Position numbers and translations under genes: made by a program. The notes under the pieces are model-generated. The model was not told the DNA's origin. It ran no database searches and was given only the letters and a program-made list of their open reading frames with translations. From Anaerolineae bacterium (lineage in GTDB: Bacteria > Chloroflexota > Anaerolineae > Aggregatilineales > Phototrophicaceae), in NCBI GenBank assembly GCA_026645945.1, contig JAPKMO010000003.1:25319-89318 (forward strand): a stretch of 64,000 nucleotides of DNA, in the 5' to 3' direction. Positions 37,504-38,911 of the stretch are shown here, piece after piece. Position 1 is the first letter of the stretch, and the number at the start of each line of letters is the position of its first letter.

Positions 37504-38781
37504 ATGCGGCTGTTCATCAGTTATGCCCACGCTGACACGGGGCAGGTGAAGCAGATTGTAGACATCCTGCGCGTTGGGGGGCATGACCCCTGGTTTGACC
37601 ACAAGCTGCTGCCGGGGCAGGATTGGCAGGCCGAACTGCTGCGGGCGATCACCGTTTGCGATGCGTTTTTGTACGCTCTGACGCCGGAGTCGGTCGCTTC
37701 AGAGTGGTGCCAGTGGGAATTTGCCCAGGCGGTGCAGATGGGCAAGCCGGTCATCCCGGTGTTGATGCAGGCTAAAACCTCGCTGCCGGAAGCCATCAGC
37801 CGCTACCAGTACGCCGACTTCACCGACGGCCCGACGCCGCGCGGCGTGGCCCGGCTGCTGGGCGGTCTGCGCCTGGTGACGGTGGTTGTGCCGCGCCAGG
37901 ATGCGCCGCCCTCGCCGCTCAACCCGCAGGGGACGCCCGCGCAGGCAGTTCAACCTTCAGCCCCGGAAACCAGGGCGGGTTTGAAACCCGCCCCTGCGGC
38001 ATCCCCGTTGGTGCCGCCTGACCTGTCGGCCATCCTGCCGCCGCCGTTTGAATGGTGCGAAATCCCGGCGGGCTGGGTGACGCTGGAGGACGCCAGCGAG
38101 TATGGTAGCACGAAAGGCGGCAAGTTCCACGTCAGACGCTTCTGGATGGCGAAATACCCGCTCACCAACGCCCAGTACCGCGTTTTTGAAAACGATGAGG
38201 ACGGCTACCTGAACCCGGCCTGGTGGGATTATTCGGAGGCCGCGAAAACCTGGCGCGAAGAAAACCCCGCCCCGGCGGATACGGCTTTCCCCGGTGACGA
38301 TCTGCCCCGTACCAACGTGTGCTGGTACGAGGCGGCGGCCTTCTGCCGGTGGTTAACGGCGCGGGCTGTAGGGGCGCAAGGCCTTGCGCCCGCACAAATC
38401 ACCCTGCCCACCGAACAGCAGTGGCAGCGGGCGGCGCAGGGCGAGGATGGCCGGGTTTATCCCTGGGGGAACAACTTCGACAGGAAGCTGTGCAATACGG
38501 ATGAGAGCGGCATCAAAAAAACCACGCCGGTCACAAAGTATCCGGACGGCGCGTCGCCGTATGGGGTGCTGGAGTTGGCCGGCAACGTGTGGGAATGGTG
38601 CCTGACTGAATGGGGGACAGACGGGACCGGCCTGGAAGGTGATGCGCCCCGGGTGTTGCGCGGGGGTTCGTGGTTCACTTATCAGTACGATGCCCGTGCC
38701 GCCTACCGTAGCAGGTACTACCCGACCGATCGTAGCGGCAACTTCGGTTTTCGGGTGGTGTTGGGGGGCGTCCCTTCTTAA
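37504..38781 (+). CDS. TIR domain + formylglycine-generating-enzyme (SUMF1)-like fusion
   Basis: N-term [41 protein letters not shown]...[11 protein letters not shown]; C-term [14 protein letters not shown]...[18 protein letters not shown]...RVLRGGSWF...NFGFRVV. Confidence 0.9.
   Translation: [425 protein letters not shown]
37971..37996. repeat. palindromic element inside CDS: CAGGGCGGGTTTGAAACCCGCCCCTG
   Basis: inverted repeat translated as RAGLKPAP within the TIR-FGE linker. Confidence 0.8.
38372..38391. repeat. palindromic element inside CDS: GGGCGCAAGGCCTTGCGCCC
   Basis: perfect 20 nt palindrome, preceded by GTAG, translated as GAQGLAPA within the FGE domain. Confidence 0.8.
38665..38760 (+). 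other. candidate DGR variable region (VR) of the FGE domain
   Basis: [33 protein letters not shown]; mostly NNY codons at positions that are Asn in DGR template-type sequences. Confidence 0.5.
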
Positions 38782-38844
38782 TTGTTTTTGTACTCTGTTG
38801 AATCTAGCCTCTGGTACTCTGGCTGTCTGGAATCTGTCGTGAAT

Positions 38845-38861
38845 CTCGCGCGGAGCGCGAG
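38845..38861. other. GC-rich hairpin CTCGCGC-gga-GCGCGAG downstream of candidate VR
   Basis: perfect 7 bp inverted repeat with 3 nt loop. Confidence 0.65.
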
Positions 38862-38911
38862 TCGCGCAAAAAACCGGCGGGGCGATTCGTATAGTCAAGC
38901 GCGCGGGGATA

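Follow-up and report, generated by a model that had tools for sequence, protein, structure and literature searches.

Does the TIR-FGE fusion gene in this stretch of Anaerolineae DNA end in a variable region (VR) that is rewritten by a diversity-generating retroelement (DGR)? And if so, from where is it rewritten, and what would such a protein do? DGR targets that join STAND, CHAT or TIR domains to CLec sensors have been described in multicellular bacteria, filamentous Chloroflexi included, and remote ones among them undergo diversification in trans (Dore et al. 2024, PMC10907252). DGR-diversified immune-type receptors were proposed for these bacteria, and the STAND-fused CLec sensors have not been characterised experimentally (PMC10907252). 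For cyanobacteria, a 2020 study listed TIR-like domains both in variable proteins and in paralogues of these (PMC7517822). The window, i.e. the whole 64-kb stretch analysed here, comes from a 4.7 Mb MAG of 254 contigs that is 92.6% complete (G000). We compared the gene, its tail and its genomic surroundings with other genomes of the genus and family.

Domain architecture of the TIR-FGE protein

The open reading frame at 37504-38781 (+ strand) encodes 425 aa and closes with a stop codon at 38779-38781. The first-pass annotation had extended the gene to 38870; the frame itself is real, and its end was placed about 90 nt too far. A Pfam scan found only a TIR_2 and an FGE-sulfatase domain, joined by a linker, and no STAND NTPase. 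The closest named relatives of the protein are from Anaerolineae/Chloroflexi MAGs.

The TIR_2 domain occupies 37513-37860 (+; residues 4-119, E 6.5e-25; PF13676, 88.4 bits). The SEWCQWEF motif, with its Glu, is kept in the sequence. In Foldseek the TIR model superposes on the TIR domains of SPARTA TIR-APAZ and SARM1; the SPARTA TIR-APAZ chains align with it over about 138 columns, with a best rmsd of 1.9 A. ThsB is resembled as well. When the TIR domain was searched alone with phmmer, TALE repeats topped the list; this was rejected as an artefact that arises when weak repeat matches are summed. Sequence and model thus give the protein the TIR fold of the Thoeris, SPARTA and SARM1 proteins, but no matching partner proteins are encoded near the gene. 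The domain may act as an effector in signalling, as a NADase or in immunity.

A Pro-rich linker at 37876-38043 (+), predicted with low confidence (pLDDT <50 at residues 127-165), leads to the FGE-sulfatase or C-type-lectin-fold domain. The modelled part of this domain spans 38044-38778 (+), and the profile match covers residues 187-419 (E 1.7e-42). The VR had low confidence in the first full-length model, which was replaced by a confident FGE-only model from a deeper alignment (pLDDT 92.9, pTM 0.91). This model matches human FGE, EgtB and the DGR variable protein 1 of Treponema denticola (PDB 2y3c, TM 0.72), which is also matched by sequence (E 3.3e-7). The Treponema protein has the same FGE-type C-type-lectin fold, whereas the matched chain contains no TIR domain. 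No Cys was found in the stretch aligned with the Cys336/Cys341 pair of human FGE. Since this catalytic pair is not conserved, the fold is most plausibly a binding scaffold. The VR sits at the 3' end of the gene on this FGE/C-type-lectin scaffold, as in DGR targets, and the homologous fold leads us to expect its variable residues at the surface.

Codon signature of the variable region

The VR with its flanking anchor lies at 38650-38785 (+). Except for template-A sites this block recurs nearly unchanged in the VRs of unrelated genes, both within this genome and in two sister species. The variable template-adenine columns span a hypervariable core at 38674-38744 (+). It is followed by a constant 3' anchor at 38746-38785 (+; GGTTTTCGGGTGGTGTTGGGGGGCGTCCCTTCTTAATT), presumably the initiation-of-mutagenic-homing region, by analogy with known DGRs. 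In the protein, the DGR fingerprint falls on the last 35 residues. NNY codons stand at 14 of the 15 template-Asn positions, AGG being the single exception, whereas 45% of the codons in the gene body are NNY (binomial p = 1.4e-4). The variable residues of the tail had been described beforehand as almost all NNY, which this count confirms.

The motif RGGSW...RAA.R...P...GFR was rejected as proof of a VR when taken alone. It is an ordinary signature of the FGE family, and human SUMF1 aligns with it. The NNY pattern together with the comparative evidence is diagnostic of a DGR VR; the FGE motif alone is not. Conserved tails occur in many related TIR-FGE proteins, which are not targets of a DGR, so architecture and diversification are separable. 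Both the wide spread of the motif, SUMF1 included, and these conserved tails would suit an ordinary FGE/C-lectin tail in which the motif is conserved and the NNY codons arose by chance. This explanation is extremely improbable, being already refuted by a template repeat (TR) in the genome, adenine-restricted divergence (p=4e-15), control tails with the opposite pattern and the mosaic structure of the gene, all described below.

A VR cohort shared by six genes in three species

One VR cohort spans six genes from three species in the genus: the window gene, a gene on contig C56 of the same genome, three genes of G005 (C192, C123 and C206) and one of G006 (C151). Among 99 aligned columns 39 vary, and 30 of these are template A, whereas template A accounts for just 2 of the 60 invariant columns (Fisher p=3.9e-15); in other words, 30/32 template-adenine columns vary against 9/67 others. 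The p-value is indicative rather than exact, as columns and sequences are related, and the argument leans chiefly on the control sets. The first-pass annotation had anticipated adenine-directed variation among relatives, and this is what the cohort displays. The window VR differs from each other member at 16-22 of 32 A sites and at 1-5 of 67 non-A sites. Its differences from the C56 VR of its own genome fall at 20/32 A sites and 3/76 other sites (p=9e-11).

Across genes and species the non-A sites of the cohort VRs show 90-99% identity, though the gene bodies differ. In the 60 nt directly upstream of the VR, the window gene and the cohort members agree at 23-31 positions, and all cohort pairs agree at 21-36 of 60 except one pair with 51/60. 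Third codon positions diverge by 9% in the VR cohort versus 47-63% in conserved TIR-FGE tails. These control tails show the opposite pattern, with the A-site columns least variable. The cohort pattern is the inverse of ordinary evolution, as would be predicted by repeated copying of a template.

Gene conversion between FGE paralogues, combined with positive selection on binding residues and with no retroelement involved, was also considered. It agrees with the constant blocks common to paralogues and with variation at presumed binding positions. However, selection on amino acids would not limit change to template adenines while keeping pyrimidine third bases. An all-Asn template is present in the same genome, and the genus has cognate TR-VR pairs with a reverse transcriptase (RT). 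We regard it as very improbable.

Several related genes were noted in the course of the comparison. The C56 gene (L197, G000:C56, 3433-7083, - strand) encodes a 1217-aa DUF4062-NACHT-FGE target, in which a DUF559 (endonuclease-like) domain lies in frame within the FGE domain, the frame being apparently unbroken. A second TIR-FGE paralogue of the genome (L156, G000:C194:3783-5135, - strand; 51% aa) has a diverged tail (RGCSFMRDRYRATVLYR...) that closes in GGVPS as well and may be an old VR. The TIR-FGE tails of L143 (G006:C58) and L144 (G005:C46) fall in another TR family (AAASYR type) than that of the window VR, which suggests that the VR type has been swapped between related receptors.

A template repeat on another contig of the same genome

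A repeat search found no TR within the 64-kb window, which agrees with the earlier statement that neither an RT nor a TR is visible there. Genome-wide searches put a TR on another contig. BLAST of the tail identified a TR of the predicted form, with 15 AAC/AAT (Asn) codons, at C88:42-158 of the same genome; it begins 42 bases from the start of this 51.6-kb contig. The proposal that a DGR would have to act from elsewhere was therefore right in form. The window VR differs from the C88 TR at 18/32 adenines and at 8/76 other sites (p=1.4e-6). Mismatches had been predicted at TR adenines only; against the C88 TR they are concentrated there.

Because 8 of 76 non-A sites differ, the window VR was not copied directly from the C88 TR. 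Its immediate source is probably a sister TR that was not assembled and whose form, ending in GFRVVLGG, is legible in the VR cohort. No TR matching the window VR at all non-A sites was found by BLAST or pattern search in the incomplete MAG or in relatives. Pattern searches for its cognate TR across the genus and across 61 family genomes turned up VRs, the C88 TR and a pair of distant Asn-rich matches but nothing else, and the plasmid collection gave no match.

About 2 kb from the C88 TR lies a degraded DGR target (L198, G000:C88, 2045-3176, - strand; C88b) with a DUF4062-nSTAND1 start and a broken frame. Its FGE tail has a VR of its own (RGGSWRNSILNARAASRYWFNPDSRNLDFGLRVV).

Mosaic origin of the gene

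Syntenic orthologues were found in two genomes, in the order aminopeptidase - TIR-FGE - sigma factor in G013 and aminopeptidase - TIR-FGE in G008. The window gene shares 71/68% DNA identity with them in the FGE body and 50/48% in the VR. Compared with the non-orthologous cohort targets, the body is 49-55% and the VR 76-81% identical at the nucleotide level with A sites counted. The orthologues match the body and not the VR; therefore, the gene is a mosaic that was rewritten by retrohoming.

In G005 the gene is absent and its flanks are 94% identical, with 422 nt between the flanks versus 1546 in the window. The G006 contig stops 34 nt past where the stop codon falls, consistent with assembly having broken at the repeated VR.

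Reverse transcriptases and cognate pairs in the genus

Neither Pfam RVT_1 nor a DGR-RT profile, the latter built from ten DGR RTs of relatives, detected an RT in the 92.6% complete MAG. None was found in G005 and G006, the species sharing the VR cohort. DGR-type RTs (IGNLTSQFW, YVDD) stand beside Asn-rich TRs in G011 (C216) and G012 (C15), and RT+TR+VR loci of the same DGR family as the window VR are present in two genomes of the genus. The G012 RT matches PDB 8ub7 (E 2.4e-44; table name 'Reverse transcriptase'), which we take to be the Bordetella phage DGR ribonucleoprotein. Differences between cognate TR and VR fall at 17/31 A and 0/68 non-A sites in the G007 pair (C728), and at 15/30 A and 0/69 non-A sites in the G012 pair (C15). 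That the window gene is or was a DGR target, as first suggested, is borne out by the TR in its genome, the adenine-concentrated differences and the RT+TR+VR loci in the genus.

The TRs of relatives often lie directly downstream of the RT, so an RT for the C88 TR plausibly lies beyond the contig edge. Alternatively, the VR may be a relic: once diversified, it would have lost its DGR in this lineage and would now drift as an ordinary FGE tail. The missing RT in the MAG, G005 and G006, the missing perfect TR even across the 61 family genomes, and the degraded target beside the C88 TR are in line with such a loss. But the low third-position divergence of the cohort (9% against 47-63% in ordinary tails) and its 90-99% identical non-A sites in differing gene bodies point to recent homogenisation, and the C88 TR stands at a contig end, where assembly would lose an RT. 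We consider a relic quite unlikely. On the preferred reading, the window strain would encode an RT of its own, and its DGR may be active at present.

Sibling targets, neighbourhood and possible role

Other DGR targets in the genus have the architectures EAD8-TIR-nSTAND1-FGE (G014), DUF4062-kinase-NACHT-FGE (G012) and DUF4062-NACHT-FGE (C56 of the same genome). The window gene most likely encodes a reduced receptor, whose variable face would sense a ligand and whose TIR domain would signal. The G014 gene (L200, G014:C34, 9382-12423, - strand) adjoins its TR, has an RT fragment in its vicinity and makes a complete NLR-like DGR target.

Judged by their translations, the neighbours of the TIR-FGE gene encode an M29-type aminopeptidase at 36214-37317, an ECF sigma factor at 39078-39632 and a WD40-like anti-sigma-type protein at 39622-40839; uvrB is a neighbour as well. 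The interval 5' of the gene (37317-37503) is a purine-rich repeated intergenic stretch (AAAGGCGCAGAGACACAGAG...) that recurs at several sites in genomes of the genus.

No obvious defence island is formed by the aminopeptidase, the ECF sigma factor and uvrB around the gene. A true DGR target could then also serve self or kin recognition, or environmental sensing, coupled to TIR signalling, and cyanobacterial DGR targets were indeed proposed to tune regulatory pathways (PMC7517822). Yet the sibling targets bear STAND, NACHT, EAD8 and TIR domains of conflict systems, as in PMC10907252, and we judge a role outside defence rather unlikely.

Discussion

Our results support a two-part receptor, at a probability of roughly 0.78, in which a TIR domain is joined to a DGR-diversified FGE sensor, the VR is rewritten by retrohoming, and ligand sensing leads to a TIR signal. 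The N-terminal TIR, the flexible linker and the FGE (C-type-lectin-fold) domain, predicted to be catalytically dead, would form the two parts. An RT encoded elsewhere in the genome would copy the TR and misread adenines, and the mutated copy would replace the VR, the last ~100 nt, by retrohoming. In this way some 15 residues on the presumed binding face would change with the scaffold left intact. Sensing is the most likely use of this face, which would bind a ligand, plausibly derived from phages or rivals. Binding or clustering would then switch on the TIR domain, by NAD+ cleavage or a nucleotide signal, and lead to defence or cell death.

The TIR-FGE gene is one of the TIR/STAND-CLec DGR targets known from multicellular bacteria (PMC10907252). 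With the antigen sensors of Dore et al. it shares the C-terminal CLec/FGE domain with a VR, the TIR, STAND or CHAT type of effector, several DGRs per genome and the remote position of targets; unlike them, it joins the TIR directly to the FGE domain without a STAND NTPase, and no RT is assembled in its genome. The remote variable proteins of cyanobacteria likewise have N-terminal signalling domains, TIR-like ones included, and a CLec VR away from the RT (PMC7517822); they come from another phylum, whereas the VR cohort of the window was compared across species and genes. Antiviral STAND (Avs) and bacterial NLR-like proteins follow the same logic of an effector with a C-terminal sensor, and the sibling targets have nSTAND1 or NACHT, but the window protein has no NTPase. 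What sets the gene apart is the direct TIR-FGE fusion without an NTPase, and the fact that a shared VR cassette is documented across species with unusual clarity. We propose only tentatively, with a little under even confidence, that an NTPase-free TIR receptor, with the effector and a hypermutable antigen sensor in a single chain of 425 residues, has its sensor rewritten in trans by a DGR, and that through the VR cassette, shared and kept uniform among several unrelated receptors and sister species, one template may feed a whole repertoire of effectors.

The very small form of the protein, a TIR domain and a variable lectin fold with no NTPase, makes it a convenient test of whether a hypermutated sensor controls a TIR effector. 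The cohort of six genes in three species, the orthologues without the cohort VR and the gene-less site with 94%-identical flanks together offer a natural experiment on the spread and homogenisation of a DGR cassette. If the protein is a diversified receptor, the organism would have a built-in means to alter what its TIR-FGE protein recognises.
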